This document shows, one piece after another, positions 6,921 to 23,081 of a stretch of DNA of 64,000 bases (within the stretch, counting starts at the first letter, position 1; each line of letters starts with the position of its first letter). Under the pieces are notes generated by a model that made no database searches, had not been told where the DNA came from, and saw nothing but the letters and a program-made list of their open reading frames with translations. The DNA comes from Pseudomonas sp. MM211 (GTDB taxonomy: Bacteria; Pseudomonadota; Gammaproteobacteria; Pseudomonadales; Pseudomonadaceae): the NCBI RefSeq assembly GCF_020386635.1, contig NZ_CP081942.1, forward strand, positions 2,604,001-2,668,000, in the 5' to 3' direction. The position numbers and the translations under genes were made by a program.

Positions 6921-8498
6921 ATGGCCCTCGACATTCACGCTCACCGCATCCTGATCCTCGATTTCGGTTCCCAGTACACCCAACTGATCGCTCGCCGCGT
7001 GCGCGAGATCGGCGTGTATTGCGAACTGCACCCGTTCGACATGGACGATGACGCGATTCGCGAATTCGCACCGCGCGGTGTCATCCTCGCCGGTGGCCCG
7101 GAGTCGGTACACGAAGCCAACAGCCCGCGTTGCCCGCAAGCGGTATTCGACCTCGGCGTGCCGGTATTCGGCATCTGCTACGGCATGCAGACTATGGCGG
7201 AGCAGCTTGGCGGCCGAGTGGCCGGTTCCGACCTGCGCGAGTTCGGTTACGCCCGCGTCGATGTGGTCGGCAAGAGCCGCATCCTCGACGGCATCGAAGA
7301 CCATGTCGACGCCGATGGCGTATTCGGCCTGGACGTGTGGATGAGCCACGGCGACAAGGTCACCGAGATCCCGGCTGGTTTCCACGTGCTGGCCAGCACG
7401 CCGAGCTGCCCGATTGCCGGCATGTTCGACGATGCGCGCGGTTACTACGGCGTGCAGTTCCACCCGGAAGTCACCCACACCAAGCAGGGCGAACGCATTC
7501 TGTCGCGTTTCATCATCGACATCTGCGGATGTGAAGCCCTGTGGACGCCGTCGAAGATCGCCGAAGACGCCATCGCCCAGGTGCGCGCTCAGGTTGGCGA
7601 TGCCAACGTGTTGCTCGGCCTGTCCGGCGGTGTGGACTCCTCGGTGGTCGCGGCGCTGCTGCACAAGGCCATCGGCGATCAGCTGACCTGCGTATTCGTC
7701 GACAATGGCCTGCTGCGCCTGCACGAAGGTGAGCAGGTGATGGCCATGTTCGCCGAGAACATGGGCGTCAAGGTGATCCGCGCCAACGCTGAAGCGCAGT
7801 TCCTCGACAACCTGGCCGGCGAAGCCGACCCGGAGAAGAAGCGCAAGATCATCGGCCGTACCTTCATCGACGTGTTCGATGCCCAGGCCAGCCAACTCGA
7901 CAACATCCAGTTCCTGGCGCAAGGCACCATCTATCCGGACGTGATCGAGTCCGCTGGCGCCAAGAGCGGCAAGGCCCATGTGATCAAGTCGCATCACAAC
8001 GTCGGCGGCCTGCCCGAGGAAATGAACCTCAAGCTGGTCGAGCCGCTGCGCGAGCTGTTCAAGGACGAAGTGCGTCGCCTCGGCCTCGAACTGGGCCTGC
8101 CGTACGACATGGTCTACCGTCACCCATTCCCGGGCCCGGGCCTGGGCGTGCGTATCCTTGGTGAAGTGAAGAAGGAGTACGCCGACCTGCTGCGTCGTGC
8201 CGACCACATCTTCATCGAAGAACTGCGCAAGGCCGACTGGTACCACAAGGTCAGCCAGGCGTTCGTGGTGTTCCAGCCGGTGAAATCGGTCGGTGTGGTC
8301 GGTGACGGCCGCCGTTACGCCTGGGTCGTGGCCCTGCGTGCGGTGGAAACCATCGACTTCATGACCGCTCGCTGGGCGCACCTGCCGTACGAACTGCTGG
8401 AAACCGTCAGCGGTCGCATCATCAACGAGATCGACGGCATCTCCCGCGTCACCTATGACGTGTCGAGTAAGCCGCCAGCGACCATTGAGTGGGAATGA
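6921..8498 (+). CDS. guaA: GMP synthase (glutamine-hydrolysing)
   Basis: A 525-residue enzyme that aminates XMP to GMP using glutamine and ATP. The N-terminal class I glutamine amidotransferase has Cys86 in FGICYGMQ and the His181/Glu183 pair in FHPEVTHT. The ATP pyrophosphatase domain has the PP-loop [11 protein letters not shown] near residue 235, and the dimerisation domain ends in the conserved IEWE. Length and ends are intact, although the 3' end is the apparent integration site for the region that follows: integration at this spot rebuilds the last codons. The stop TGA is at 8496-8498. Confidence 0.98.
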
Positions 8499-8510
8499 CC
8501 CCGCGTCCGG
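8487..8510 (+). repeat. guaA 3'-end repeat, site A (putative att site)
   Basis: The last codons of guaA plus the following bases are repeated downstream. Bases 8487-8507 match 13659-13679 with a single difference in 21 bases, and 8494-8510 (aatgaccccgcgtccgg) match 17897-17913 exactly. The repeat covers the guaA stop codon, as expected when an integrase uses the gene end as its target. A weaker relative occurs at 20338. The 3' end of guaA is a known hotspot for genomic islands; use as an att site here is inferred. Confidence 0.7.
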
Positions 8511-8541
8511 TGTAAGCCGGTAGTAAGTGGTCAGGAAAACC

Positions 8542-8568
8542 AAAAGCCCGCGTAATTGCGGGCTTTTT
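8542..8568 (+). terminator. guaA terminator (copy A)
   Basis: A stem AAAAGCCCGC / GCGGGCTTTT with a 6-base loop and a terminal T-run, a standard intrinsic terminator. Related hairpins recur after sites B, C and D, so the terminator appears to be part of the repeated unit. Confidence 0.85.
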
Positions 8569-9122
8569 GCGTCTGATATTCTCGTAGCCCTAGTAAGTCA
8601 AAAGGCAACCGCCAATCTCGTAGGGATCATCACCGTGGAAGATAGGAAGCACCTGATTAACGCCATGACGGACACTCTGATGATTGCGATGTATCAGGCC
8701 GAAACGAGCGTGGCCAAGTGCCCGGATCTCAACAGCTGCATTGGGCAGAGTGTCAGAGCAATGGAGGAAAATAAATCTGTCCCCTTTTTTCTGGGGTGCT
8801 TCCTACTCTGACCCCTGCTTTGGAGAGCCAGTGATCGCAGCACACCAGTAGTAGCGAACAGCAACCCTCGCTGGTCACGTCAAGCGGGGACATATCCATC
8901 AAATTCCCAGTCCATCACTTCAGCCAAGTTACGGGTACTCCCATGGGGCACAGCCGCGCGCACAAGCTCGGCTGTGTGCACTGCCCACTACACTGGCTAC
9001 GCTGCTGGTCGCCGGCCACCCGTGCTTGCCGCTAATAGGGCATTCCAGCAGAATGTACCGAAGCCACACGACGGCCAGCAGGTCGTTCCCACATGTGCAG
9101 ACCGCCTCGAGAGAACGCCGAC
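8569..9122. other. intergenic region without a confident gene
   Basis: Between the guaA terminator and the first secreted-protein gene there is no full gene. It holds a short open frame (8635-8811, listed separately) and a phrase near 8775 (aaatctgtcccctttttt) that, from memory, is common at the edges of REP-associated transposase relics. The rest shows no clear structure. Confidence 0.5.
8635..8811 (+). pseudogene. short open frame, probable gene fragment
   Basis: A GTG-started frame of 58 codons. The first about 47 residues (EDRKHLINAMTDTL..., ending SVRAMEENK) have the composition of a real helical protein with two Cys (KCPDLNSC). The remaining residues are encoded by the low-complexity phrase containing cccctttttt and look random. 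I read it as the start of a gene cut off by a small insertion or rearrangement. I do not recognise the family. Confidence 0.25.
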
Positions 9123-9695
9123 ATGAAACTCCGCCCCCGCATCGCCGCATGCATGCTTGCACTGCTTCCTACGGCCTTGATGGCGCAGGTACCAACGGAA
9201 CTGTTGGGTGGTGGCAATTCGGCGAATGATGGGAAAATGGCAAACACGCCGTTCTACAAAGGCAAGGAAGGCATTTGGGTGCTGTCGCACAAGGCGGTGA
9301 ACGATGGCTACCAGTGCTCCGTAGGTTTCATCACCGAGACGGCCTCGCTGAAAATTGCAGATCCGTGGGATGCCGACATGGCCAAAAAAGGCGACGGGAT
9401 GCTGTGGTTCAACAGCAAGGACATTCCCCAGGTAAAAGCCCCTAAGACCGTAAGAGTCACATTCGGCAATGGGCTAGGCAATGCTGATGTCGGGGCCTAC
9501 CAGATACCCGGCAGTGACGGCCAGGGAGGGGGTTTCATCCTGTCGCTCAAGTTTGACTCGGTTCTGAAGGATAAAAGCGACACTGCCCACTACACCATCG
9601 GCATGGATGGCAAGTCCATGGTCGATATAAAACCCATTGCCGTGCAGGCCGCCTATAGGCGTTTGAAGGAATGCATGGCGGTGCGGGTAAAGTAA
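9123..9695 (+). CDS. secreted hypothetical protein
   Basis: A 190-residue protein with a clear signal peptide (MKLRPRIAACMLALLPTALMA, cleavage after ALMA). The mature part is beta-rich by appearance, with Cys in GYQCSVGF and near the C-terminus (LKECMAVRVK) that could form a disulfide. The ATG at 9123 is chosen because the signal peptide starts there. I do not recognise the family. It converges on another secreted unknown (9748-10932), with a shared hairpin between them. The pair lies in the segment bounded by guaA repeats A and B, so it is accessory DNA. Confidence 0.6.
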   Translation: MKLRPRIAACMLALLPTALMAQVPTELLGGGNSANDGKMANTPFYKGKEGIWVLSHKAVNDGYQCSVGFITETASLKIADPWDADMAKKGDGMLWFNSKDIPQVKAPKTVRVTFGNGLGNADVGAYQIPGSDGQGGGFILSLKFDSVLKDKSDTAHYTIGMDGKSMVDIKPIAVQAAYRRLKECMAVRVK

Positions 9696-9697
9696 GC

Positions 9698-9718
9698 CCC
9701 CGGACGACAGCTCCGGGG
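9698..9718. terminator. hairpin between two convergent genes
   Basis: A stem CCCCGGA / TCCGGGG with a 7-base loop sits between the stop codons of the two convergent secreted-protein genes. It could stop transcription from either side; the T-run is weak. Confidence 0.5.
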
Positions 9719-9747
9719 CAGTACGTTACACCGCCTTACCGTGCCGT

Positions 9748-10932
9748 CTATTGGCCGGGCGCGTTCATGATGTCGGCGCAGGCATGCATGCCGCGGGTAT
9801 CCCCTGCAGAGTCAGCCGTCACCCGGACATCGGCAACCTTGTATACGTTGTCCGACTCGTCCGGCATCAGGACATAGCGCACGTTGCAATACTGCCAACC
9901 GCCCGCCGTGCCCATTGGGGCGCCATTGAAAGCATTCACCCACTGCACCTGGTTGTCGTACGAACTGCCGTAGGAAAGAAAGCGCATCCCACCGGCATCA
10001 TTGATTGCCGGCGGCCCGTTCGCCACGACCACATCGTGTTCTGTCTTCCCCACCCACAGCTGGACCAGCGTTGACTCGGCCCGCGACAGCTTGCGCTTGC
10101 CGCGCAATTGCGCAGCCTTGGTGGTAAAGGAAAGTTCTCCGCCAAGCTTCTTGAGCGTTGCATTGGTCTCATCTGCTTCACGGTCAACTCTCGACTTGAG
10201 CTCGGCCATGTTTCGTTTGAGTCCGGCGATTTCATCCGGCGTCATTTCCCGCGCGGCTACCGAGGGTGGACGTACCGCGTCCTTCCAGATGTGCTTCCAG
10301 GTGAAATCCGCCGCATCCTCACCAGTACCTATCGGAACCGCGCCCAAAACATGGATGCCCAGCCCTTCCATATTTTTTGCAAGCAGTTCGTTATTGATGG
10401 AGCGGTCCGGGTTACCCGACGCCTGCAGTGCGCTCGAGAAAGCATCCGGCTGACAGGCAATGCGATAGGCCTGCAGCAAGGTGTAGCTCGAGGTCGTCTG
10501 CCAATCCGTGGGTTGTGTTGCATCGTACCTGTCCTTCTTCCGGGACCAGGTTCCACCTCCATTGGAACGGAACCTGATGGTGTCTACCTCCGGCAAGGAT
10601 GCAAGTTTGATCTCGACATCTTTCGGAACCCGCACATTGCTTCCGTTCAAGTCCGGCATGATCATGCGATTCATGTTGGGGCATTCGAATTGCGCCGCCA
10701 TGACCGTCCAATGAGGCTTGTCCGCCGCCTCGTAGACCAGTTCCAGCTCCATCCCTCGGATCAGCGTTTGGGAGAATGCACTGCCACCCAGTCTGGCGAT
10801 ATCCTCCGCATTGGCATACACGATCACGCGGTTGGGCGATTCACCCTGCATGTCGATGATGTACTTGTTCGCCAGTACCGGGCTGGCCATCGCCAATATG
10901 GCCAGCCCGCAAAACATTTCTCGAATTTTCAC
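9748..10932 (-). CDS. secreted hypothetical protein
   Basis: A 394-residue protein. A GTG start at 10932 is favoured because AAAGGA stands seven bases ahead and the product begins with a signal peptide (KIREMFCGLAILAMASPVLA). The longer ATG-initiated frame has no ribosome site and would bury the signal. The mature protein has scattered cysteines (FECPNM, IACQP, QYCNVRY, HACADIM) and a Lys/Glu-rich helical stretch in the middle (AELKSRVDREADETNATLKKL), perhaps a coiled coil. I do not recognise any domain. It is convergent with the 190-residue secreted protein and probably has its own promoter upstream of 10932. Confidence 0.55.
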   Translation of the reverse strand: MKIREMFCGLAILAMASPVLANKYIIDMQGESPNRVIVYANAEDIARLGGSAFSQTLIRGMELELVYEAADKPHWTVMAAQFECPNMNRMIMPDLNGSNVRVPKDVEIKLASLPEVDTIRFRSNGGGTWSRKKDRYDATQPTDWQTTSSYTLLQAYRIACQPDAFSSALQASGNPDRSINNELLAKNMEGLGIHVLGAVPIGTGEDAADFTWKHIWKDAVRPPSVAAREMTPDEIAGLKRNMAELKSRVDREADETNATLKKLGGELSFTTKAAQLRGKRKLSRAESTLVQLWVGKTEHDVVVANGPPAINDAGGMRFLSYGSSYDNQVQWVNAFNGAPMGTAGGWQYCNVRYVLMPDESDNVYKVADVRVTADSAGDTRGMHACADIMNAPGQ

Positions 10933-11335
10933 TGAAGGATCCTTTGTTGCCATCCACAGCGCAGCGCATGGCCGGCTATGACCTTGAGATGGTTCGATCT
11001 TAGAGCCGCTCGGTTCGGCTAACAAGCCGAGGTATAACCGGACCCAACGTGGTGCAGAGCGTGCGCTGCGACGGATGTTCGTTTTGGGTCGATAGCAGTC
11101 GCCGGTGACGAGGGGCAACTACCGGCCAAGAGCAGATGTAGATGACAGGCCGCTATCGGCCAAAAGCTGCCGGTCGCCAATAGGCCGGTTTCCGCCTGTG
11201 GCCAGCGGGTCGGGGTTGGCCTATAGCGGTCAATGCTAGCCGCAGCCCCCATTTTGCTCGCAGTATGCTCTGTACCTTGTAAGGGCGGTCAATTCCATTT
11301 GTTGTCGGACGGATCCGCTGCCCTTTTTCAGCTAG
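10933..11335. other. intergenic region, no gene seen
   Basis: This stretch holds the upstream region of the leftward secreted-protein gene. Several CCGGT/GCCGG-type short repeats near 11100-11220 could form local hairpins. No open frame here has convincing composition. Confidence 0.4.
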
Positions 11336-11581
11336 ATTCACGAAGCTAATAACTGCCTGCCACATCAGCTTGCCCTAGATGACGAATGTCTATCTACAGC
11401 TGAGTGGATGAAGGATGCGTTCGACACACCGGCTAAGGTTAACCAGCGCAAGACGTGGGTTATTGAGGCTTGCCTGCAGGCGATCAAGCCGTTCCCGAGC
11501 GCGGGTTTTGATTGCAAGAAAGATATTTCCTTTAAAGTGCTTTCCGAGGTCATTGACCCGTTGACGACTAAGGGCAAATAA
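11336..11581 (+). pseudogene. C-terminal gene remnant upstream of the beta-propeller gene
   Basis: An open frame begins after a stop at 11333 and ends with TAA at 11579-11581, one base before the next start. The encoded tail (CLSTAEWMKDAFDTPAKV, then WVIEACLQAIKPFPSAGF) reads like genuine protein, but there is no good start for a full protein; the first ATG is at 11408. I interpret it as the 3' remnant of a larger gene whose 5' part is lost. The tight spacing to 11583 suggests the two were once co-translated. Family unknown. Confidence 0.4.
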
Positions 11582-11582
11582 A

Positions 11583-12701
11583 ATGGCAGTAGGTATCCCC
11601 GCGAAAAAAGCGACCTTTCGCTTTGCGCAGAAATTCAACGGTGTGGTATCCACCGCTATTGGTGGTGATCAACTGTATGTGCTGTACAGCAGTAAAGACG
11701 CCGAGGGTGAGCGTTACTTCAAGGCTTTTGACCTGCCTCGGTACAACGGCCTAGAGGACGATGTGCCGGCACGTCTGAGCCGCAAGTCGGAGCCACGCTG
11801 GCGCCCGATGTTTCTGAAGAGTGGCTTGTTGTATGTCTATGGGGAATCCCCCGAACTGATCGATGTGACTGACTGGCAGCCGCGTTACAGCGAGCATGAA
11901 GCGGTCGCCAACCCTGAATGGGCAATCGACGGCCGCTTTGTCTACGACGGCAAACGGATTTACCGCGCTTTTGGCTGGAATGACTACAGCCGTGGCCTGG
12001 ATATCGTCGAGAACGGCAAGGTGGTCGATCATGTTGACATCGATATCCAGTATTTCATGCCGGCCGCTGACGGCCTGATTTACGGAGTACGACTGTCTGC
12101 TCCGGTTTTCTGTGTGTACTCACTCACTGAAAAAACCGTGAAGCTCGAAATTCCTCTGGACCGTTTCGAGTTTGCGCCTGGCGTTACCCTGGCTCCGACT
12201 TCGCGTGACGGCGACACGCTCTACGTGCTGGCAGGTGATCATGTACTGGTCATTGATTTGACCTCTTTCACCCTCGTCGGCGAGTTTGCTTACTTCAATA
12301 CCGCGTTCATGCAAACGCTACTGGCTGGCATGAAGTACAAAAATCAGGCATTTCCGCGCTACATCAGCGCCCGTGGCGGCACCGTCCTCTTGAGTAACGT
12401 CAACAGCAGCGGCTTCGTACTCTGCTTATCCACGGTTGATGGAGTCCAGCTTTGGGCACGCAAAAGCAACGATGAAATGCTCGCCGCGAATACCGATGGC
12501 GACCTTGTGTTCGGTCTGGAGGAGCGCCGACCCCGCGCCTGGGACAAGTACACCGGCGCGGAGGTTTGGCAGGCATCGGCCGGGACCATTGCCAATACCA
12601 TCGAGGTGAGTGGCGACTGGGTGGTCTACCACCAGCCTGCCGGCGATATTCAGTGCTTCACCTGGAAAAAGCCCTATTCGTCACCTCATCGTCGGGGTTG
12701 A
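11583..12701 (+). CDS. beta-propeller (PQQ/WD-like) hypothetical protein
   Basis: A 372-residue protein with repeated beta-strand units of about 40-50 residues (for example GGDQLYVLYS, GLLYVYGESPELIDV, GRFVYDGKRIYRAF, GDTLYVLAGDHVLVIDL, and a PQQ-like DKYTGAEVWQASAG). This pattern indicates a propeller. No signal peptide is seen, so it is probably cytoplasmic. No catalytic motif is evident and I cannot name a family. The start is one base after the stop of an upstream gene remnant and the stop is four bases before the next gene, so it belongs to a compact operon whose first gene is broken. Confidence 0.6.
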   Translation: MAVGIPAKKATFRFAQKFNGVVSTAIGGDQLYVLYSSKDAEGERYFKAFDLPRYNGLEDDVPARLSRKSEPRWRPMFLKSGLLYVYGESPELIDVTDWQPRYSEHEAVANPEWAIDGRFVYDGKRIYRAFGWNDYSRGLDIVENGKVVDHVDIDIQYFMPAADGLIYGVRLSAPVFCVYSLTEKTVKLEIPLDRFEFAPGVTLAPTSRDGDTLYVLAGDHVLVIDLTSFTLVGEFAYFNTAFMQTLLAGMKYKNQAFPRYISARGGTVLLSNVNSSGFVLCLSTVDGVQLWARKSNDEMLAANTDGDLVFGLEERRPRAWDKYTGAEVWQASAGTIANTIEVSGDWVVYHQPAGDIQCFTWKKPYSSPHRRG

Positions 12702-12705
12702 GGGG

Positions 12706-13149
12706 ATGTCCAACGTCGTCACGCCGTTGTTGAAAGCCGCCACCTGGCAAGAGCAGGCCAATGAGCATGGTCTGCTTCTTTCGCCGTTGTCTGTGTCGGT
12801 ATCGCCCGCCCAGGCGCCGTTGCTGGCGTATGCCATCGATCAGGGCGAAACCGTGGCGTATGTGTCGGCCAGTGAGGTGGATGTCGCGCAGCGGGCAGAC
12901 TTTCATCAGTCTGCGCTGGCGGCTTTACGCCAGCGCCTGAGCCAGCTGGATTGGGTGCCTGTCGCCGAGCATGAGCACACGCTGATACTGGCGGGCGATT
13001 TCAATGCCGCCGAAGGCCTGCTGCTGCCAGAGCGCCTGCAGGAAGCACAAGCCTTGCTTGGCGCCACGGCGTTGCTGGCGTGTACGCCCAAGCGCGGTGT
13101 GTTGCTGGTGGGCGCTTATGAGACCGACAATAAAGCGGGTGTCGTGTAG
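12706..13149 (+). CDS. hypothetical protein, possibly DUF1444-like
   Basis: A 147-residue acidic protein. The order LLAYAIDQGETVAYVSASEVDV, a helical ALAALRQRL segment, then LILAGDFNAAEGLLLPERL recalls DUF1444 (YtpQ-like) proteins, but the match is by eye only. No signal peptide or membrane segment. It starts four bases after the propeller gene, so the two are co-transcribed and perhaps partners. In such two-gene cytoplasmic pairs after a lost large gene, an immunity or chaperone role is possible; this is speculation. Confidence 0.5.
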   Translation: MSNVVTPLLKAATWQEQANEHGLLLSPLSVSVSPAQAPLLAYAIDQGETVAYVSASEVDVAQRADFHQSALAALRQRLSQLDWVPVAEHEHTLILAGDFNAAEGLLLPERLQEAQALLGATALLACTPKRGVLLVGAYETDNKAGVV

Positions 13150-13658
13150 AGGCTAAAAGGATTATGTCGCTGGGTTTGAAAGTTGCAGCGACTGGCCAGC
13201 CGTTTATATCCATTGGAATTGACCAGCACGCTTTGCTCCCTCGACAGGCAGGAGTCGGCCAGAAGCGGCCCTTCGCTGTGGCTTGAAACTGGCGAAAAGA
13301 GGACGGTCTCACCGCCGTTGGGGACCATCTTGAGGCTTGAGGATCTCTGGAAATGGGGGGCGATTCATTCAGATGATATGCCAGAGATAAGAACGTGAGA
13401 GATCTTGGTCACGATGAGGCAGTGGCAGAGGCTTTTCAGGCTGGCCCGTCGATGCCATCGTATTGCTTGCCGAAGTCTGCGCTGAGGGAGCAGCTTTTGA
13501 GCTTGCCGTGCTGATGCGTCTCCTTTCTGCTGCATGTATCTTGGCGACGTTAGCCCTCAGAAGTGATTTTTATCCTTCAGGGTATTTTTCATGGTTTTGA
13601 AAAAATTAGTTCCTTGAAAGCCACTAAATACATGCTTTCATGGCGTCTGTTGATAATA
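13150..13658. other. intergenic region before site B
   Basis: No full gene. It contains a short antitoxin-like fragment at 13395-13514 (listed separately) and AT-richer sequence from about 13560 to 13660 leading into the guaA-end repeat. Confidence 0.5.
13395..13514 (+). pseudogene. possible relic of an addiction-module antidote gene
   Basis: A GTG-started frame of 39 codons. Its first 20 residues (RDLGHDEAVAEAFQAGPS) resemble the N-terminus of small HigA-like antidote regulators that begin MRD-x-HDEA-x-AE. The frame then runs into unrelated residues and stops, so no helix-turn-helix remains. No toxin gene is visible beside it. If the resemblance holds, it is the stump of a toxin-antitoxin unit of an older mobile element. 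Confidence 0.25.
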
Positions 13659-13737
13659 GAGTGGGAATGATCCCGCGTCTGCCGCTTAGCGGCAGCGACT
13701 GGTAGGAAACACGAAGCCCGCTTAATTGCGGGCTTTC
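13659..13737 (+). repeat. guaA 3'-end repeat, site B, with hairpin and terminator
   Basis: Bases 13659-13679 repeat the end of guaA including its Trp-Glu-stop codons with one mismatch in 21. They are followed by a hairpin (CTGCCGCTTAGCGGCAG) and an intrinsic terminator (GAAGCCCGC / GCGGGCTTTC, 13713-13737). The section 13675-13736 matches 20338-20399 with six differences in 62. I read this as the right-hand junction of one guaA-integrated element and the left-hand junction of the next. Confidence 0.7.
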
Positions 13738-14033
13738 TTCTTTCTGACTTCCCGTTTCTTATTCCCGATGACTCCCTCGTTCCGCATGAGCGCCTGCCGA
13801 CATGTTCCGCATTGCAACGGCGTCGAGCAGGGGGGCAGGCCTTCCTGACCGGGACGGATTGCGGGCCTGATTTTCTCATGCACAGCGGATCGATATGCCC
13901 GACTATCAAGAAAGATGTGCGATATTTCCGCAATCCAGTAGTTGTAGCCAGGAGGGCATGTGATGCACGGCAGATTGTGTGGGGTACCTTTGTGCGAGAC
14001 GCACAATAGCCATTGGACGCCAAACTTGGTCAA
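13722..14033 (-). CDS. doubtful small ORF with two CxxC motifs
   Basis: A leftward frame of 103 residues, opposite to and upstream of the large NTPase gene. It contains two CxxC pairs (CITC and CGTC) about 60 residues apart and a very basic tail, which would suit a zinc-binding nucleic acid protein. Against it: the start would be TTG without a ribosome site and its stop lies inside the site B terminator stem. I recognise no family. Treat as a weak candidate. Confidence 0.2.
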   Translation of the reverse strand: MTKFGVQWLLCVSHKGTPHNLPCITCPPGYNYWIAEISHIFLDSRAYRSAVHEKIRPAIRPGQEGLPPCSTPLQCGTCRQALMRNEGVIGNKKREVRKKKARN

Positions 14034-14108
14034 GTCTTTGCGGGAGCGACAGCTTTCCTATCTGGTGATGACGTCGCGACGCTACTTCAACGATGAGTTG
14101 AAAGCAGC

Positions 14109-17100
14109 ATGAGTGCTCAAAAGGAGTCTGCCTCTGGGGAGTCGTGGAACCTGGTTCCGCTTACGCCTAAATACCTACAAAGGGAGCACGGCGTTTATGT
14201 CGCAGCCATCGAAGCTGCCCTTGCGGACGATCAGATCCGTAACATCGCGCTGTCGGGAAACTACGGAGTAGGCAAAAGCAGCATCTTGCGGGAAGTCGCT
14301 CGAAGACAGGAAAGTCGTGTCGTCGAGATCTCGTTGTCGACACTTGCGCCGATCGAAGCATCCAAACTTGATGAGTCGGTACCTATCCAGGCGACAACGC
14401 CGACCAACCGTATCCAACAGGAGATCGTCAAGCAGCTGCTCTACCGAGAAGATCCGAGCAAGACACCTGCATCCCGGTTTCGACGGATTGAGCGTTTTCG
14501 ATGGATACGGGAGATAGGGACTGCGGCGCTGTTGGGGCTTGCCATCTCTGTCATCTTCCTGCTCACCGGGTGGACAGCACAGATTGCCTCTGTACTCACT
14601 CCGCTGGCAGATGTAGGGCTCTGGGCTCACATGATTGCGTGGGGCGTGGCTGCGGGCGCTGCGCTGCTGGTGCGTTGGCGTTACTACGGAAAGCTCCACA
14701 TCAAGCAGTTTTCAGCAGGCTCGGCAACGGTAACTCTCGAAGACAACTCCGTATCGTACTTCGATCAGTATCTCGACGAGATCGTCTACTTCTTTGATGT
14801 CTCAGACCGTGACGTCGTGATCTTCGAGGATATCGACCGCTTCAACGACTCACACATCTTCGAGACGCTCCGAGCACTGAACACGTTGCTTAATTCTTCG
14901 CCTCAGGTCGAGAAACCGATCCGTTTCATCTATGCCATCAAGGACAGCATCTTCGACCGCATCGGTCTGGAGGGGGAAGGTCGCAAGCTTGAGCCGAACG
15001 TGCTCGAAATGGACGATCCGGCGCAGGCTGAGACTGTGCGTGCTAACCGCACAAAATTCTTCGATCTGGTCATCCCGGTTGTTCCCTTTATCACGCACCG
15101 GAGTGCTCGCAACTTGGCGGTACAGCTGCTAGGTGAGGTCAAGTATGAGATAGCTCCGGAGCTACTCGATTTGGCGGCGCGGTATGTCCCGGATATGCGC
15201 TTGCTCAAGAACGTCCGTAACGAGTTTATCGTCTTTCACGACCGGATCTTCTCCGGCGACGGCGAACAGCTCAAGTTGAGCGAGACCGACCTGTTTGCGA
15301 TGATGCTCTACAAAAGCACGCACCTGACGGATTTCGAAACGATCCGGCTCGGTACGAGCAAGCTGGACATCCTCTATGAGGTAAGCCGAAAGCTTGTGAC
15401 CGAGAACATCAAGCGAATTGAGGGCGAGCGTCGCGAGCTTCGCCAGCGACTTACACAGATCGATGGGGCCGCTACACGCAGCGTGCAGTTGGGTGAGCGC
15501 CTGATCGCGCATGTGCTACGGACAATTGAGGCTGTCGGTTATTACAACCAGGGTTCGACATATACGCTTGCAGGCAAAGTGAGGTCGTTAGACGATCTCA
15601 AAGGGGCGCCATTTTGGAAAGACCTAGCTTTGCTCGACGGTAACGAAGTCTTTGAGTGGCGAAACCGTAATTACGGTCAGGTGTTGTCGTTCAGCCGTGA
15701 CAGCATTGCAGCCGCGCTTGGTGATTCTCTAAACGTCGACAGCTGGAACGAGGTGGATCGTGAGGCGCTGAGTGAGCAGATCGAAGTGGGGGTGGAGGAC
15801 ATCAAGTTCCTGCGGAGCGCCGACCTCGGCGATCTCGTAAAGCGACCGGAGTTTCTCGTCGATTATGAGTCGAGCAAGCAGTCTTTAGATACGACCGCGA
15901 GGGCGTTGCTGAAATCGGGCCTGGCCTACCAGCTCGTCCGGGCCAAGTACATCAACAGCAACTTCACGCTGTACACGTCAACGTTCCACGGGAATCGCGT
16001 GAGCACTGCTGCGACTAACTTCATCATCCACCACGTCGAACGAGGCCTGATGGACGAGCATTTCGAACTTCTCCCGGACGACGTGGATGCCGTGGTTCGT
16101 GAGCGAGGTAAGAACGCATTGAGGGAGCCGGCGCTCTATAACATCGCCATATTCGACCGCCTTCTGGCGACCGACATTCAGGCAGCCGAAATAATGACCC
16201 GTTCCCTGGTTGAATTCGGGCATAGCCAGACGAGGTTTCTGCAGGCGTACCTCGCGACTGGGGAGCAGCGCAGGCTGTTTGTTCAGCAGTTTGCGGTAGT
16301 CTCAACGCAAGCGCTTACTTATCTTGTGAGCCAAGCTTACTTGGATGATGCTTCAAAACTGGAGTTGGTAAACGTTGCCTTGGCGCACCTCCCAGTTCCA
16401 AAGCCACGAACTGATACTGCGGTGTCTGAGTACCTGTCAGCACACTATGTTGAGTTTTCGGCGCTTACGTCGGACTCCACTGATCCGGCCCAGGCAGAGC
16501 GTATTAGCAGGCTCTTCGCGGCAGCGAGCATTATTCTGCCTCGTCTGAAGCCGCTGGGGCTGCAAGTTCGCCAATCGTTTGTATCACGCAACCTGTACGA
16601 GGTAACGCATGAGAACCTTGCGATCGCCATCGGCAATACGGTAACCGTTGCGCTCGACGTCATCAGTGCAGCCAACGAGACGGTGTACGATTATGTGCTC
16701 AAGCATGTGAGCACCTACCTGAAGGCTGTTGAGTTTGCGTCTGCGACAATCGATGCAAACGACAACTTCCTCTGGGTGATCGAAGATGTGCTTGAGCAGG
16801 ATGCGGTTAACCTTGGTGCTGTGATCGAGCGTGCAGCCCCAGATTGTGAAGTTGCTGATCTCGCAGAAGTGTCTGAAGGTGCGTGGCCGGCATTGGCCGA
16901 ACATAAGCGAGTTCCAGCAACATTTAGCAACGTCAGCCGCTACGTCGAGACCCTTGGATCGGTCGATGCAGCGCTGGCGACGATTCTGACTGCTGCTGGC
17001 GAGATTACAGAGATCAGCACCGCTGACGAGGTGTCGAAGACTTCGTTGGCGGTCGCCATACTTGCGGCAACGGATCAGCTTCCATCCGCAGCGCTACGCT

Positions 17101-17753
17101 CAAAGCTGGTCGCGAGTTTGAGCCTGGATAGCTACCTTGATGTTGATGATATCGAGGCGGAGGCAGGAGAACTCTTCCCGCTGCTACTCAAACACGACAT
17201 CATTGCGGACGATGCGGATTCCTATGAGCACCTTGCACAGACGGATTGGCCGACGCGCAAAGCATTTATTCGTGAGTCGAAGAAGTTCTCCAGCTACATG
17301 ACACCGGAAATTGTGCAGCCTGATCTTGCGATGCTCCTAGCAAGCGATGAGGTCAACTCCGCAATCAAGGAGGTGATACTAAAGCAGGCCGCTGAATACG
17401 CGGAAGTGGCTGAATCGCGAGGGCTCAAAGAGCTAGCCAGATTCGCTACTCAGAATAGGTACCAGCTCCCTCCAGTTGCCGTGCAGAAAATGGCGCAAGG
17501 AGGCGTCACAGCGCAGCAGATCGTACTGCTACTCGAACCTCACCTAGCGTCGATCAGTCGCCAGCAGCTCTTCACGGTGTTGATGGCGCTCGACGGCGAC
17601 TATCCGAAGCTGACGACGGTGGGGCGCGATAAGCCGCACATCCCGAACACCTCCGCCGATCGCGCACTGCTTGAGCGTCTCAAACGGGACGGAATCGTCA
17701 GTAAGTTTGACGAGCACGAGTCACCGATCAAGGTGAACAAGAAATACAAATGA
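14109..17753 (+). CDS. large YobI-type P-loop NTPase with membrane hairpin; candidate defence protein
   Basis: A 1214-residue protein. Walker A is GNYGVGKSS (residues 50-58) and Walker B is VVIFEDIDRF (236-245). Between them lie two hydrophobic helices (about 136-155 and 171-190) that should place the NTPase on the inner membrane, an arrangement also seen in KAP NTPases. After about residue 420 comes a long helical region without recognised domains. The N-terminal motif order (NLVPLTPKYLQREHGVY, then LSGNYGVGKSS) fits the YobI-like P-loop NTPase family, whose function is unproven. It is the only confident gene between guaA repeats B and C, and its base composition is visibly less GC-rich than the core genes. 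A role in phage or plasmid defence is inferred from architecture and island location only. Confidence 0.8.
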   Translation: MSAQKESASGESWNLVPLTPKYLQREHGVYVAAIEAALADDQIRNIALSGNYGVGKSSILREVARRQESRVVEISLSTLAPIEASKLDESVPIQATTPTNRIQQEIVKQLLYREDPSKTPASRFRRIERFRWIREIGTAALLGLAISVIFLLTGWTAQIASVLTPLADVGLWAHMIAWGVAAGAALLVRWRYYGKLHIKQFSAGSATVTLEDNSVSYFDQYLDEIVYFFDVSDRDVVIFEDIDRFNDSHIFETLRALNTLLNSSPQVEKPIRFIYAIKDSIFDRIGLEGEGRKLEPNVLEMDDPAQAETVRANRTKFFDLVIPVVPFITHRSARNLAVQLLGEVKYEIAPELLDLAARYVPDMRLLKNVRNEFIVFHDRIFSGDGEQLKLSETDLFAMMLYKSTHLTDFETIRLGTSKLDILYEVSRKLVTENIKRIEGERRELRQRLTQIDGAATRSVQLGERLIAHVLRTIEAVGYYNQGSTYTLAGKVRSLDDLKGAPFWKDLALLDGNEVFEWRNRNYGQVLSFSRDSIAAALGDSLNVDSWNEVDREALSEQIEVGVEDIKFLRSADLGDLVKRPEFLVDYESSKQSLDTTARALLKSGLAYQLVRAKYINSNFTLYTSTFHGNRVSTAATNFIIHHVERGLMDEHFELLPDDVDAVVRERGKNALREPALYNIAIFDRLLATDIQAAEIMTRSLVEFGHSQTRFLQAYLATGEQRRLFVQQFAVVSTQALTYLVSQAYLDDASKLELVNVALAHLPVPKPRTDTAVSEYLSAHYVEFSALTSDSTDPAQAERISRLFAAASIILPRLKPLGLQVRQSFVSRNLYEVTHENLAIAIGNTVTVALDVISAANETVYDYVLKHVSTYLKAVEFASATIDANDNFLWVIEDVLEQDAVNLGAVIERAAPDCEVADLAEVSEGAWPALAEHKRVPATFSNVSRYVETLGSVDAALATILTAAGEITEISTADEVSKTSLAVAILAATDQLPSAALRSKLVASLSLDSYLDVDDIEAEAGELFPLLLKHDIIADDADSYEHLAQTDWPTRKAFIRESKKFSSYMTPEIVQPDLAMLLASDEVNSAIKEVILKQAAEYAEVAESRGLKELARFATQNRYQLPPVAVQKMAQGGVTAQQIVLLLEPHLASISRQQLFTVLMALDGDYPKLTTVGRDKPHIPNTSADRALLERLKRDGIVSKFDEHESPIKVNKKYK

Positions 17754-17896
17754 GATCTGCGGGTTTATCCAAAACTCAACGATTGGAATCGTAGTGGCCT
17801 ACTGCACCTAGGCACCCATTTAGGGCGAGAATTCTGGTGTCTAATGCCAAACAACGTCGTGTGTTCACGCCAGACTTCAAATCATAATCGAATGTA
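17754..17896. other. short intergenic region before site C
   Basis: AT-richer DNA between the NTPase stop and repeat C. No gene or strong terminator is seen before the repeat; the hairpin inside site C may terminate the NTPase transcript. Confidence 0.4.
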
Positions 17897-17978
17897 AATG
17901 ACCCCGCGTCCGGCACTGCCCGGTACGATCTAGCAAAAATGCCCAGAAGCCCGCGTAACAGCGGGCTTCTGGCTTTTT
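17897..17978 (+). repeat. guaA 3'-end repeat, site C, with hairpin and terminator
   Basis: The 17-mer aatgaccccgcgtccgg (17897-17913) is identical to the sequence spanning the guaA stop at 8494-8510. It continues with a short dyad (CCGG..CCGG) and a strong intrinsic terminator (CCAGAAGCCCGC / GCGGGCTTCTGG at 17943-17972, then CTTTTT). It lacks the upstream guaA codons seen in site B. It forms the right border of the NTPase segment. Confidence 0.7.
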
Positions 17979-18126
17979 GGGGTTGGCTAATTCAGGTTGT
18001 GTTCTGCGTCGCCAAGCACGGTATCTATTTCGCTCCCGGCCGGGATTACTGTCGCGAGGGGGCGGCGTTGAATCAGGGGTTGCCGCCGGGGCATGAGCGC
18101 GAGCTGCGCCTTGCCCTATCGGCGGA
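17979..18126. other. intergenic region right of site C, no gene seen
   Basis: This stretch lies between repeat C and the stop of the leftward GGDEF/EAL gene. An open frame on the plus strand here has the random composition expected of non-coding GC-rich DNA. Confidence 0.4.
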
Positions 18127-20073
18127 TCAAATCGCCTGTACCTTGGTTAGTTGCTCGCCTTCGAGCCAGGTGCTGATGTCGCTGGCGCGCATGGGTTTTG
18201 AGAACAGGTAGCCCTGGGCCCAGGCGCAGCCGAGGTTTTTCAGGGCGCCGAGTTCTGCGGCGGTTTCCACGCCTTCGACGATGCATTCCAGCTGCATGTC
18301 CTGGCACAGGGCAACCAGCGATTTGACGATCTTGAAGCTGGCCGGGTCGAGGTGGATGTTGGTGACGAAGGTGCGATCCACCTTCAGTTTGGTCAGCGAC
18401 AGCGCGTGGATCTGGCTCAGGCTGGAATAGCCGGTGCCGAAGTCGTCAAGGGAAATGCCGCAGCCCAGCTCGCGAAACCGGCTGATCGCTCGCTGGGTCT
18501 GCGGCAGATCCTGGATGGCTGCGGTTTCGGTGATTTCCAGATCGAGGCAGGTCGGGTCGAAACGGCTGCTCTTGATCAGCTCGACGATCTGCTGGGCGGC
18601 GTCCTCCGAACCACAGTCGTGGGCGGACAGGTTGAATGACAGGCGCATACCCGCAGGCCAGCTCGCGGCCACGTCCATCGCCTCTCTCAGCAATGGCAGC
18701 GTGAGGCGATTGATCATGCCGACGCGCTCGGCAATCGGGATGAATTCACTGGGCGGCACGTTACCCAACTCCGGGCTCTCCCAGCGTGCCAGTGCCTCGA
18801 ACGCAACGGTTTGCTCACTGTGAATATCTACGATGGGCTGGAACACCACGTGAAACTCACTATCCAGATCGGCCCTGCGCAGGGCCTGTTCGGTCTGCCC
18901 TTCGCGATTGAGCTGCTGGCGATGGGCTGCGCTGAACAGGCAGACCGTGCCGGAGCGGTGGCGCTTACTCTGATACAGGGCATAGTCGGCGTATTCATAC
19001 ACCTGCGTGGCGCTGGATGCCTGATCCGGGAAGGTCGCGATCCCCAGTGAGGCGCTGATCTGAATAGGGATGTCCACCAGCAGAAATGGCTCGCGCATGC
19101 TGGCGCAGATTTTCTCGCCAAACGCCCGCAACTGGTCGTCGCTCATGGCCTGAGTAATGATCAGAGCGAACTCGTCGCCGCCCAGTCGGGCCAGGTGCAC
19201 ATCGTCGTCGAGCAGCCCGCTCAGGCGCTGGCCAACCTGATAGAGCAGCTTGTCACCAATGCTGTGGCCATACAGATCGTTGACCGGCTTGAAGCCATCC
19301 AGGTCGATCAGCCCTACGGCCAGGCGAATATCCTGCTCGCGGGCGCGGGACAGCTGCGTATCGAGGCGGGAAAAGAACTGCCGCCGGTTGGCCAGCCCGG
19401 TCAGGCTGTCCTGATTGGCCAGGTGAAGGTTTTCCTCGCTGAGTTTTGCCGTATGCGCCTGCATGTTCACCAACCGGGTGAAGTCGGTGTATTGCGCCTT
19501 GAGAATGATCAGCATGGCAATGGACACCAGCAGCACGTCAATTGCAGTGGCAATAAAGGTAATGATATTGGTGGACGCGAAGAACACCACGAACGCCGTA
19601 TTGACCACTGCCGTGGTGACCAGGGCGGCTGGCAGCAGGTGCATCATGCAAAAAATGCAGCCGATGACGGTGATCGCCATATAGAACGCGACATGCGCCT
19701 GGGTGTAGCTATCGCCATAGGGAAACAGCGCCAGCGACCAGGCGGTGAACGCCACGGCGACAAAAGGCGCGAGCATATTGGTGCGCTTCAGCGCCGTCAG
19801 CATCTGCGCCGGGCTGCGCGTCTGCCCTCGCGTGCGTATCCATTCCACCGCACGAATCACGCCGAACACCGTCATGATCAACGGGCAATACACCACGAGC
19901 CAGCGCGGCGCGACCGCGAGGTGGGTGCCCGCCAGCATCAGGGTGTTGATCAGCAGGATGAAGTACATCATGGGCAATTGGCGAGACAGAGCGAGGTATT
20001 GCGCCTTGACCAGACCAGGATTGTCCTTGGGCACGGACATCAAAGTTCGCACGCCGAGCAGTGTTTTGTTCAT
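18127..20073 (-). CDS. membrane-bound bifunctional diguanylate cyclase/phosphodiesterase
   Basis: A 648-residue protein when started at MNKTLLGVRTLMS (20073); the frame is open further upstream, but that part has poor composition. About five or six membrane helices form the N-terminal sensor region (residues about 30-200). A GGDEF domain (LGGDEF at 298-302) and an EAL domain (FEALARW, Glu426; DDFGTGYSSL; EGVETAAEL) follow. Both active motifs look intact, while the RxxD inhibitory site ahead of GGDEF is absent (DDDV instead). It makes and/or degrades cyclic di-GMP at the inner membrane, influencing motility and biofilm. It is the only gene between sites C and D and points against the NTPase. 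Confidence 0.9.
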   Translation of the reverse strand: MNKTLLGVRTLMSVPKDNPGLVKAQYLALSRQLPMMYFILLINTLMLAGTHLAVAPRWLVVYCPLIMTVFGVIRAVEWIRTRGQTRSPAQMLTALKRTNMLAPFVAVAFTAWSLALFPYGDSYTQAHVAFYMAITVIGCIFCMMHLLPAALVTTAVVNTAFVVFFASTNIITFIATAIDVLLVSIAMLIILKAQYTDFTRLVNMQAHTAKLSEENLHLANQDSLTGLANRRQFFSRLDTQLSRAREQDIRLAVGLIDLDGFKPVNDLYGHSIGDKLLYQVGQRLSGLLDDDVHLARLGGDEFALIITQAMSDDQLRAFGEKICASMREPFLLVDIPIQISASLGIATFPDQASSATQVYEYADYALYQSKRHRSGTVCLFSAAHRQQLNREGQTEQALRRADLDSEFHVVFQPIVDIHSEQTVAFEALARWESPELGNVPPSEFIPIAERVGMINRLTLPLLREAMDVAASWPAGMRLSFNLSAHDCGSEDAAQQIVELIKSSRFDPTCLDLEITETAAIQDLPQTQRAISRFRELGCGISLDDFGTGYSSLSQIHALSLTKLKVDRTFVTNIHLDPASFKIVKSLVALCQDMQLECIVEGVETAAELGALKNLGCAWAQGYLFSKPMRASDISTWLEGEQLTKVQAI

Positions 20074-20337
20074 CAGGCGACGCTCTGAAAATAAGACCAG
20101 ATAAATAACCGAGCGGATCATCCTTTCCAGCCTGGATCGAGCAGGGCTAAACGCTGCTCTCATTGGGATCGTGTCGGCCGATCCCCAGGTTTCTGCAATC
20201 TTTACGACTAGTGGCACTTTGCTTTCGTTCCGTCAGCCGGTCGCGATAGGTGTAAGCGAGGCAAGCGCCGGTGGCGAATTCAAAAGGCGAACTAGACGTT
20301 TTATTCAGTCGCTCTGCAGGAGCATGCAACCTGACCG
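20074..20337. other. upstream region of the GGDEF/EAL gene
   Basis: It presumably contains the leftward promoter for the cyclic di-GMP gene. No other gene is seen before repeat D. Confidence 0.4.
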
Positions 20338-20402
20338 GCGTCTGCCGCTTATCGGCAGCGATTAGTAGAAAACACAAAGCCCGCTTGATTGCGGGCTTTG
20401 TG
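20338..20402 (+). repeat. guaA-end type repeat, site D (hairpin plus terminator)
   Basis: Bases 20338-20399 match 13675-13736 with six differences in 62, covering the hairpin (CTGCCGCTTATCGGCAG) and the terminator (CACAAAGCCCGC / GCGGGCTTTGTG, 20373-20402). The guaA codons upstream are not recognisable (ctgaccggcg instead of atgatcccgcg), so this is either a degenerate att junction or a copy of the element end alone. It marks the right border of the third segment. Confidence 0.6.
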
Positions 20403-20541
20403 CATTTTGGACTCCGCATTTCGACGAGCCCCGTATGTGTGAGCGGCGCTTTTCCTGACGACCTCAGCGTGTCGACCTAATGAAGTTTTATCTGCTCCTA
20501 TCCAACCGACTCGGTTTTATGTAACAGCTGGGAACTTTATT

Positions 20542-20560
20542 GATAATGACTATCGTTGTG
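20542..20560 (+). promoter_or_regulatory. Fur-box-like operator ahead of the TonB receptor
   Basis: The 19-mer GATAATGACTATCGTTGTG agrees with the Fur consensus at 14 of 19 positions by my count. It lies about 105 bases upstream of the receptor start. Iron-repressed transcription of the receptor is the natural inference. Confidence 0.65.
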
Positions 20561-20665
20561 ATAGATGTTTTCGAATATCATTGTTGTACGACCTCTGCCG
20601 GTGCGTTGCGAAAAAGCTAAAAGGGCTAACGGCGGAAGCCTTAAAAACAATCAAGGATCTTGAGC

Positions 20666-22810
20666 ATGACTCATTGCAAACCCAGGGCTATCCCTACAAC
20701 TGTGTCCTGGCAGCGAACTGCTACGGCCGCTCTGTTCTGCGCTCCGCTGGTTGCTGTTCCTCTGGGCGCGAATGCTCAGGAGGCGATTACCATCGGTGAG
20801 GAGGAGAGCTATCGCCTTGCGCCGATCATCGTTAATTCCCAGGCTGCAGCAAGTGATGACGCCAGCACTGTAGTTGCTCAGGAGCTTTGGGTTGGCGGCA
20901 AGGTCGCCACCAGCATCCTCAACACGCCGGCTTCTGTCTCAGTCGTGACCCAGAAAGAAATCGAGCAACGCAGCGCAAGCACCACTGAAGAAGTGCTGCA
21001 ATACACTCCGGGTGTTATCACTGACTACTACGGCTCCGATGACCGCAACGACTACTTTAAGATCCGCGGCTTTCAGGCCACTACCTACCGTGATGGCTTG
21101 ACCCTCAGTTCGATGCGCGGTGTGCGCGAAGATCCATTCGCCTATGAGCGCATCGAAATACTGCGTGGCGCCAACTCCACCCTGTTTGGCCCAGCAGACC
21201 CAGGCGGCTCGGTAAACTTCGTTAGTAAACAGCCGCGCTTCAACTCGTTTGGCCAGGGCTATGTCACCTATGGCTCCTTCGATCACAAGGAAGTCGGCAT
21301 CGATGTGGGCGATGCGCTCAACGACAGCAAAACTCTGGCCGGCCGTTTCACCGCCAAGAAGCAAGACAGCGAACGCGAGTACGACCATTCGCAAGATGAT
21401 AATCAGCTAGTGATGGGCGGTCTGACTTGGGCACCGACTGAATTCACTTCGGCGACCATAGTTCTGGATCACCTGAAAACTGAAAGCTCGCCCAACAGTG
21501 GCGGTTATCCACTGGACAGGGAATATGACCGCGACGAATTCTTTGGCGAGCCCAGCTACAACTTTCATGATGTGGAGCGCACCAGTCTCAGCGGTAACAT
21601 CACCCACGATTTCGACAACGGCTTCGTGCTGCGCAGTAACCTGCGTTACAGCAAATTGACCGACGACTTTGGCTACGTGTACCTGAGCGATACCGCCGGG
21701 CGTGTTGGAACCACTATCCCTCGTGTTCAATTTGCCACGGACAGTGAGGCGGATCAGCTCAACGGCAACGTGATGCTTCAATACGATCACCGCTTCGAGA
21801 ACGTCGACAGCAGCTCTCTGGTGGGTATCGAGTATCTCGATTCGTCGACCGAATCCACTTCAATATTTACCGGTGCGTCCTCGATCGACATCGCTAACCC
21901 TGTATTCACCGGTGTGGCTCGCGGAGCCGCGCCCTTCACGTCCCGCAAAGAGGACGCCAAGACGACTGCCGTCTTCCTCCAGCAGAACCTGTCTTTCTAT
22001 GAGCGCTTCATCGTCACTGCCGGTGTGCGCAGAGACTTCATGGATCTCTCCAGCAAGGGGTTCAACACATTCAACGTAGCTCCAACCCCTGTTGTGTTTG
22101 ATGATAACGACAACTTTTCCGAGACTTCCTACCGCGGCGCGCTGACTTATATCGTCTCCGACGAAGTTTCCACCTATGTCAGCATGGTCGAGTCGGTCGC
22201 ACCGCCTGAAATCGGCGTAACGCCTAAGCGTGGTAAGCAGTATGAAGTCGGCGTGAAATATTCGCCCATCGGCATGAACGCGTTGTTCTCGGCAGCTATC
22301 TATGACCTTACCCAGGATGACGTAACTTTCGCTGTCACCCTGCCGGATAACCGCATTGAGCAGCAAACGATTGGTGAGACACGCACGCGTGGTCTGGATC
22401 TGGAAGCCAAGGCTGATATCACCGAAAATCTTAGTCTGGTCGGTGGTTATTCCTACATGGAGTCGGAGATCATTCGTGACATCGACCCATCCCGAGAGGG
22501 TAATGAATTCGATGTTGCGCCGAAGCATTCTGCGTCGCTGTGGAGCTATTACAGCTTTCCAGGCACGAAGATGAGCGCTGGCCTGGGTGCCCGTTATGTA
22601 GGCGCCTATTACTTCAACCTTGCTAATACCAGCAAAAGCGACGCAACTACGCTCTTCGACGCTGCTTTCAACTACAACATCGCCAAAGGCACTGATCTGG
22701 CACTCAACGTCAGCAACCTGCTGGACGAGCAGCATGTGGTCGGCTCCGGTACCGCCAACTACTACAACCCTGGCCGCGAAGTTACTGCCAAGCTGAGCTA
22801 CAACTGGTAA
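20666..22810 (+). CDS. TonB-dependent siderophore receptor
   Basis: A 714-residue outer-membrane receptor. The ATG at 20666 has AAGGA eight bases upstream, and the signal peptide ends at GANA/QEA. The plug domain is typical (TPASVSVVTQKEIEQR, then NDYFKIRGFQATTYRDG and LRGANSTLFGPADPGGSVN), and the barrel ends in LSYNW with the C-terminal aromatic residue needed for assembly. There is no N-terminal signalling (STN) domain, so it is a plain importer rather than a transducer. The ligand, probably a ferric siderophore, cannot be read from sequence. A Fur-like box lies upstream and a strong terminator downstream; it is monocistronic and no siderophore biosynthesis genes are nearby. Confidence 0.93.
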   Translation: MTHCKPRAIPTTVSWQRTATAALFCAPLVAVPLGANAQEAITIGEEESYRLAPIIVNSQAAASDDASTVVAQELWVGGKVATSILNTPASVSVVTQKEIEQRSASTTEEVLQYTPGVITDYYGSDDRNDYFKIRGFQATTYRDGLTLSSMRGVREDPFAYERIEILRGANSTLFGPADPGGSVNFVSKQPRFNSFGQGYVTYGSFDHKEVGIDVGDALNDSKTLAGRFTAKKQDSEREYDHSQDDNQLVMGGLTWAPTEFTSATIVLDHLKTESSPNSGGYPLDREYDRDEFFGEPSYNFHDVERTSLSGNITHDFDNGFVLRSNLRYSKLTDDFGYVYLSDTAGRVGTTIPRVQFATDSEADQLNGNVMLQYDHRFENVDSSSLVGIEYLDSSTESTSIFTGASSIDIANPVFTGVARGAAPFTSRKEDAKTTAVFLQQNLSFYERFIVTAGVRRDFMDLSSKGFNTFNVAPTPVVFDDNDNFSETSYRGALTYIVSDEVSTYVSMVESVAPPEIGVTPKRGKQYEVGVKYSPIGMNALFSAAIYDLTQDDVTFAVTLPDNRIEQQTIGETRTRGLDLEAKADITENLSLVGGYSYMESEIIRDIDPSREGNEFDVAPKHSASLWSYYSFPGTKMSAGLGARYVGAYYFNLANTSKSDATTLFDAAFNYNIAKGTDLALNVSNLLDEQHVVGSGTANYYNPGREVTAKLSYNW

Positions 22811-22915
22811 GCCGGTAGATCGTCGCCCGAGAGTCTTCTTACTGCTCGGGCTATGCTCCGCGATTGCCGCAGGCCTCCGTTGAGACCAGGCAATAGTGGA
22901 AATGTACCGCTAATG

Positions 22916-22952
22916 AAAAAGGCGCGAATCGTTAATCGATTCGCGCCTTTTT
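22916..22952 (+). terminator. strong intrinsic terminator
   Basis: A perfect 16-bp stem including flanking A/T runs (AAAAAGGCGCGAATCG / CGATTCGCGCCTTTTT) with a 5-base loop. Symmetric, so it can act in both directions. It ends the TonB receptor unit. Confidence 0.9.
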
Positions 22953-23081
22953 CAGTTTGGGCTGGTATCGCAAAGGGTGCAGCTTGTTGGTCTCAGCCAA
23001 AAAATGCGCAGAGGCAAGCTTGGCTATTGCGACCTGGCAGGCCTGTGCTGCTGGTTGGCGACCAATGCCCATGTCGCTCTC

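Follow-up and report, generated by a model that had tools for sequence, protein, structure and literature searches.

A YobI/Tmn-type membrane NTPase near guaA in Pseudomonas sp. MM211: a candidate stand-alone anti-phage protein with relatives in type I restriction-modification operons

What is a single large membrane NTPase doing among repeats of the guaA 3' end in Pseudomonas sp. MM211? The gene in question lies in a 64,000-nucleotide stretch of this genome (contig NZ_CP081942.1, positions 2,604,001–2,668,000 of the forward strand; hereafter 'the window', whose own numbering is used throughout). Here we suggest that it probably encodes a YobI/Tmn-family protein that defends against phages as a stand-alone system. 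We favour this reading because the protein is homologous to the Tmn group and its relatives occur with restriction-modification (R-M), Gabija, MkoC-like and prophage genes and on plasmids, and also because its Walker residues are invariant, its distribution in the genus is patchy, one of its segments is variable and the fold matches of its N-terminal part include RdrA. The gene and the parts of its product are as follows.

14109–17753, + strand: YobI/Tmn-type membrane NTPase, 1214 amino acids (aa) (open reading frame, domain, profile and structure evidence).
14196–15368, + strand: PF20693 YobI-ATPase domain, residues 30–420 (Pfam; VIA-align).
14256–14282, + strand: Walker A motif GNYGVGKSS, residues 50–58 (translation; alignment A2).
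14502–14684, + strand: transmembrane hairpin, residues 132–162 and 170–192 (hydropathy; predicted helices).
14814–14843, + strand: Walker B motif VVIFEDIDRF, residues 236–245 (translation; alignment A2).
15459–15758, + strand: hypervariable segment, residues ~451–550 (identity to relatives; predicted secondary structure).
15759–17750, + strand: C-terminal helical region, residues 551–1214 (predicted local distance difference test, pLDDT; inside the hhalign range with the Tmn group).

Translation gives one unbroken frame, found once in its own 5.28-Mb genome by protein search, and residues 30–420 match the whole PF20693 model (positions 1–363 of 363; 390.9 bits, cut-off 27; E = 1e-116). A preliminary description of the locus, made from the sequence alone, had recognized an intact 1214-residue YobI-type NTPase and proposed profile searches against that family; the strong match bears the identification out. 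It had also placed a membrane hairpin between intact Walker motifs, and this is confirmed by hydropathy, with peaks in 19-residue windows from 132–146 and 169–170, by the predicted helices, and by alignment A2 (58 rows, identities down to 29%), in which G50, G53, G55, K56, S57 and S58 of Walker A and E240, D241, D243, R244 and F245 of Walker B are invariant in all rows. Along the protein the order is Walker A, hairpin (132–192), Walker B. In an AlphaFold2 model computed from A2 (mean pLDDT 84, predicted template modelling score 0.50), residues 451–550 form a small beta-containing module flanked by long helices, and a series of long helices, with pLDDT mostly 88–96, runs from about residue 600 onward. 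Fold matches by VIA-align, the rows of which cover mainly model residues 1–590, give the N-terminal part an ORC/Cdc6-, MuB/TnsC- and RdrA-like (RADAR) arrangement. No solved structure matched the NTPase by sequence at E ≤ 1, and its Pfam matches include no nuclease domain.

Does the protein represent an undescribed defence system, from a family with no proven role, as first proposed? Neither part of that proposal stands. Tmn has been tested against phages in Escherichia coli (PMC11846954), and a plasmid-borne E. coli gene (L092, with the annotation 'pcar') matches the PADLOC Tmn profile, PDLC02220, over its full length (2224.6 bits, profile positions 9–1273), its identity as Tmn resting on that profile and not on comparison with the cloned, phage-tested Tmn. 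Because L092 is itself a PF20693 protein (E = 2.7e-103), the notion of an undescribed, roleless family fails. Within the window branch, the database entry P0120 from Brevibacterium already bears the name 'antiviral immunity YobI-like NTPase', a name whose basis is not visible. What survives of the proposal is the candidacy for defence, through homology and the context of relatives, but not its novelty.

Nor is the window NTPase a member of Tmn proper. Its best match to the PADLOC Tmn profile joins residues 5–283 to profile positions 16–324 of 1273 (163.7 bits), far from full length, and in a fast tree of 88 sequences, arbitrarily rooted on a Roseovarius protein and built after four of the 78 loci that have an NTPase open reading frame (ORF) were removed as fragmentary, it falls outside the Tmn clade. 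There, it groups with the protein of comparison genome G414 and those of Salinicola and other Pseudomonas, adjoining enteric and Acidithiobacillus proteins, while L092 and a 53%-identical Pantoea relative make a clade of their own (support 1.0) far away. Profile against profile, the two groups nonetheless align almost end to end: hhalign gave a probability of 100, E = 5e-62 and 22% identity over 1077 columns, spanning, by the alignment header, 44–1241 of 1244 in A1 (21 rows) and 42–1267 of 1275 in A3 (five rows: L092 and four YobI-type relatives not scanned with PADLOC). By sequence comparison, then, the window NTPase shares ancestry with the Tmn group over its whole length, on a different branch. 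The roughly 800 helical residues first described as unassigned are also helical in the structure prediction, and this alignment with the Tmn group covers them.

The genomic company kept by relatives is the second support for a defence role. We collected 79 loci from genome contigs, 78 of them with an NTPase ORF, and clustered the flanking ORFs, which were called by a simple longest-ORF rule so that starts and overlaps are approximate. The biggest clusters were HsdM (13 loci), HsdR (12) and HsdS (8), which we named by scanning a few representatives with Pfam and PADLOC. In a control on 40 of the 79 loci, the highest-ranked without L022, L034 and L036, HsdM lay in the flanks of 11, its hidden Markov model position being confirmed inside all 11, against 0.20 expected by chance from 40 HsdM_N matches in the 157 Mb of these loci's 40 genomes (Poisson 4e-16, kinship ignored). 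The linked loci represent about six lineages by our reading of the tree, L077 included. Among the known defence genes that it had been proposed to look for beside homologues, enrichment was shown only for those of type I R-M, with gene-by-gene scans covering a minority of the loci.

In each of the 11 linked loci the NTPase gene shares its strand with a type I R-M operon and lies inside it or is its last gene. The gap from the preceding gene to the NTPase frame is at most 35 bases in 10 of them (333 in L048), with a 4-base overlap in L013, L016, L023, L025, L026 and L028. The clearest case is L013, where hsdM, hsdS, a Hypoth_Ymh-like gene, hsdR and the NTPase gene form a five-gene series of successive 4-base overlaps, followed by an Abi_C gene. 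In L025 (Methylobacillus) the NTPase frame shares 4 bases with hsdS, and after it come a Schlafen AlbA_2 gene and then hsdR; in L026 and L028 an ORF without Pfam family separates hsdR from the NTPase. Two more loci of the HsdM cluster lie beyond the 40: L077, where hsdM and hsdR run on the other strand, and L063, with a partial HsdM-like ORF 8.9 kb away at the edge. Because the gammaproteobacterial stand-alone clade, the window included, is nested among R-M-linked lineages (support 0.69 and 0.98 at the key nodes), the stand-alone form may derive from the operon form.

Such coupling recalls PrrC, an effector encoded inside the type I R-M operon EcoprrI, and raises the possibility that these NTPases guard restriction itself. 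They would be wired to type I R-M and act once restriction had been defeated, triggered by modified DNA or an anti-restriction protein, with the window copy an orphan descended from them and able to sense such phages in the absence of R-M. The operon coupling in 11 of 40 loci, the 4-base overlaps in six, the L025 NTPase between hsdS and the Schlafen gene, and the adjoining positions of stand-alone and R-M-linked clades all point this way, as does nmad5, a DNA-modification gene in which phages escaping Tmn have a mutation in common (PMC11846954). However, deletion of nmad5 left sensitivity to Tmn (PMC11846954), 29 of the 40 loci have no HsdM in their flanks, the window genome has no HsdM_N match, no nuclease domain was matched in the NTPase, and in L026 and L028 an extra ORF stands between hsdR and the NTPase. 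On this analysis we regard a restriction guard as unlikely to be the right account of the window protein.

Other relatives sit in a variety of mobile or defence-related settings. In Pseudomonas viridiflava (L015), the Gabija genes gajA (1171 bits) and gajB (965 bits) lie one gene further downstream; in a Lelliottia plasmid, a MkoC-like gene (230 bits) directly precedes the homologue. In two of the four E. coli genomes with a homologue, those that were opened, the NTPase gene lies between icd and intE/xisE, presumably in an e14-type prophage to judge from the gene names. The NTPase gene of Pseudomonas L011 ends ~300 bp from the guaA 3' end and is flanked on the opposite side by a phage integrase, and a phage-type integrase lies upstream of the NTPase in L012. 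ORFs clustering with TrwC-type relaxases occur less than 7 kb from the NTPase in L018, L060–L062, L064 and L065, which suggests conjugative elements.

Could plasmids or other mobile elements, rather than phages, be the main target of the NTPase, or might it protect the element that carries it? Plasmid carriage, the prophage integrase neighbour and the relaxase and integrase genes near several loci would fit such a role, but Tmn was tested against phages (PMC11846954), and the R-M and Gabija links are compatible with either target. We think this distinctly improbable, and prefer the anti-phage reading.

How widely is the gene distributed? A protein search found 803 relatives among 8000 scored candidates, the best 120 of them at least 67% identical over at least 86% of the length; sources among those listed include Pseudomonas, Stutzerimonas, Serratia, Acidithiobacillus, Salinicola, several actinobacteria and others, and the closest actinobacterial members among the matches listed are 67–72% identical to gammaproteobacterial ones. 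Within the genus, five of 398 genomes, its own included, have a match at E ≤ 1e-100, and 17 of 249 have PF20693 above the cut-off, as do three of 14 control genomes, Bacillus subtilis among them. Plasmid records gave 630 matches, nine over at least 80% of the length; four of 5426 E. coli genomes have a homologue, all chromosomal; viral contigs yielded six loci out of 69 pattern matches; and none of 50,697 phage records has one. The preliminary description had named residence mostly in conserved core loci as the finding that would speak against defence, and no such pattern emerged: the gene is rare in the genus, and its places differ among the loci opened (guaA, icd/intE, R-M operons, plasmids). 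Incomplete copies were also seen. Genome G030 (L128, ~7.9–8.1 kb) has a 67-residue fragment 78% identical to the window NTPase, which suggests that the copy in this relative has probably decayed, and only partial ORFs occur in Marinomonas L054 (531 aa) and Kushneria L036 (944 aa, at a contig end).

Divergence along the protein is uneven. Against G414, synonymous divergence (dS) is 0.187 for residues 1–390, 0.402 for 391–938 and 0.068 for 939–1214, compared with 0.296 for the neighbouring EAL gene (its first 48 codons removed) and 0.405 for part of guaA. Third-position changes are concentrated in residues 391–930, and none of 2000 permutations was as strong. Residues 1–390 have a nonsynonymous divergence (dN) of only 0.016 beside their dS of 0.187, indicating purifying selection on the NTPase part. 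Against the seven closest relatives, identity is 88–100% over residues 201–400 and falls to 48–78% over 451–550, and the predicted beta-containing module in this segment fits an exchangeable sensor tip, with relaxed constraint as the alternative account.

Several observations weigh against a defence role. The scanned neighbours of the NTPase in the window include no defence gene (Pfam, PADLOC) and no hsdM, hsdS or hsdR, and HsdM_N matches number zero in its whole genome. Elsewhere, the scanned neighbours in L011 and L012 gave no PADLOC match, a look by eye found no defence gene in L010, L014 and L030, and no PADLOC family at E ≤ 0.001 matched the NACHT- and HEPN-annotated neighbours on an Enterobacter mori plasmid or a 934-aa neighbour on an E. 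hormaechei plasmid. The scanned window neighbours, and the retention of the block beside the same genes in G414, would suit a membrane ATPase of stress response or housekeeping, or else neutral cargo, with no immune function. Yet 393 of 398 genus genomes have no match at E ≤ 1e-100, HsdM is enriched in relatives' flanks, and the NTPase part is under purifying selection, so that we hold this account to be very unlikely indeed.

If the NTPase is indeed an anti-phage protein, how might it work? We infer a sequence of events from the predicted architecture. A helix hairpin inserted in an AAA+/ORC-like NTPase would anchor the protein in the inner membrane, where a large helical scaffold, with long helices and a fast-changing beta-containing tip, might recognize a target that a phage has made or modified. 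A rearrangement powered by ATP, probably oligomerization at the membrane, could follow, and phage multiplication would be stopped, most likely by damaging or de-energizing the membrane (abortive infection).

How did the gene come to lie here? Four sites related to the guaA 3' end mark the locus.

8484–8570, + strand: site A, 3' end of guaA; the GAGTGGGA core is intact and a terminator-like stem is present.
13656–13746, + strand: site B, guaA-type repeat; the core is intact and a terminator-like stem lies at 13713–13736.
17887–17973, + strand: site C, degenerate guaA-type repeat, no core; its stem at 17943–17972 is terminator-like on both strands.
20335–20409, + strand: site D, repeat that is 85% like B but lacks the core; it lies between the EAL and TonB genes.

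The GAGTGGGA motif is the consensus of islands inserted at guaA (PMC7775301). Within 8001–23000, on both strands, this 8-bp core occurs only at A (8487) and B (13659), and in G414 (+ strand, 38 kb) likewise only at A and B, which are 27.9 kb apart there. Since the window's own A–B genes have no match in G414, A–B looks like an exchangeable island, with the NTPase beyond B, beside the decayed site C. The earlier placement of the gene between guaA repeats therefore stands for B, with its intact core, but not for C: lacking a core, C leaves B–C without two intact bounding sites, and an att-bounded cassette is ruled out. Site B, the NTPase, site C and then the EAL and TonB genes follow one another in the same order in the window and in G414, and this order, together with the uneven divergence, also rules out recent arrival as a uniform block. 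Site D was not found at the matching place in G414.

Composition sets the gene apart only in part. The lower GC content first reported is real, at 54–56% in its four kilobases against 57–67% in most other kilobases of 5000–34999; two other stretches are also low (10000–13999, 54–58%; 20000–22999, 53–55%). A sigma-70 scan of 13600–18130 gave no promoter-like site. No integrase was found among six scanned ORFs from guaA to the TonB receptor gene, the minus-strand ORFs of 103–174 aa being unscanned but for one (PADLOC). PADLOC matches to JetB1 (E 0.037) and PtuA (E 0.015) in the window scan were weak and taken as chance. In the A–B island (8571–13655), ORFs at 9093, 9748, 11583 and 12610 have no Pfam family above cut-off. 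Adjoining site C is a GGDEF-EAL protein gene (18127–20217), common to G001 and G414, the listed frame of which probably begins 48 codons too early; the TonB-dependent siderophore receptor gene (20660–22810) has a dS of 1.48 against G414, far above its neighbours, which suggests replacement.

Is the NTPase quite alone? Between B and C it is the only + strand ORF of at least 100 aa, as the description of a lone gene implied, but a short frame overlaps its start.

13963–14112, + strand: 49-aa frame, possibly a small partner or leader (weak; conserved in G414, weakly in L033).

Its stop and the NTPase start share 4 bases, and its product carries a C-x4-C-x2-H-x2-H pattern; the G414 copy is 88% identical (dN 0.073, dS 0.173), and a weak counterpart immediately precedes the NTPase gene of Acidithiobacillus L033 (39% over 46 aa, local E 7e-4). 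A database search with the frame returned only two close matches, and one with the L033 counterpart none. Given the overlap and the conservation in G414, the NTPase may not be entirely alone.

The family, one branch of which has a phage-tested member, was already known; new here is the type I R-M operon form of the window branch. We met neither this branch nor its operon form in the open-licence literature searched, where we also found no paper on Tmn together with hsdR. The mechanism of Tmn is described as unexplored (PMC11846954), and a direct operon link in the window branch offers a testable trigger, failed restriction, while the bounded variable segment makes the question of the sensor accessible by swapping segments between alleles. 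We raise, as a rather doubtful generalization, the idea that YobI-type NTPases form a membrane-bound 'second line' within restriction, coupled start to stop, that Tmn and nmad5 reflect the same principle, and that stand-alone copies are orphaned guards in which an exchangeable tip sets the target. If this were true, such NTPases, placed last in the operon or between hsdS and hsdR, would fire when phage DNA modification or anti-restriction proteins defeat restriction.

How does the protein compare with known systems? It resembles E. coli Tmn (PADLOC PDLC02220) in PF20693, in joining a hairpin NTPase to a long C-terminus in one gene (1264 versus 1214 aa) and in the near full-length profile alignment, but differs in identity (~22–25%), in the Tmn profile reaching only residues 5–283 and in its separate deep branch. 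It has the full-length domain match, intact Walker motifs and inserted hairpin of the YobI-like P-loop NTPases (PF20693), although the Pfam model spans the NTPase domain only and not the 800-residue C-terminus; the literature searched gave no paper for YobI family phrases. KAP P-loop NTPases, said to have been described by Aravind in 2004, reportedly have membrane segments inserted in the NTPase domain, and the KAP likeness noted at first holds for this architecture but not for sequence, no Pfam KAP model matching at E ≤ 0.01. A KAP NTPase coupled with Orc/Cdc6 genes is mentioned in PMC10853773, and the main text of PMC13092281 names neither YobI, Tmn nor KAP. Like PrrC in EcoprrI, relatives of the window protein lie within or at the end of hsd operons; unlike PrrC, the window protein has no nuclease domain match and no R-M operon, in a genome without HsdM_N. 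Finally, RdrA of RADAR is among the VIA-align fold matches of its N-terminal part.

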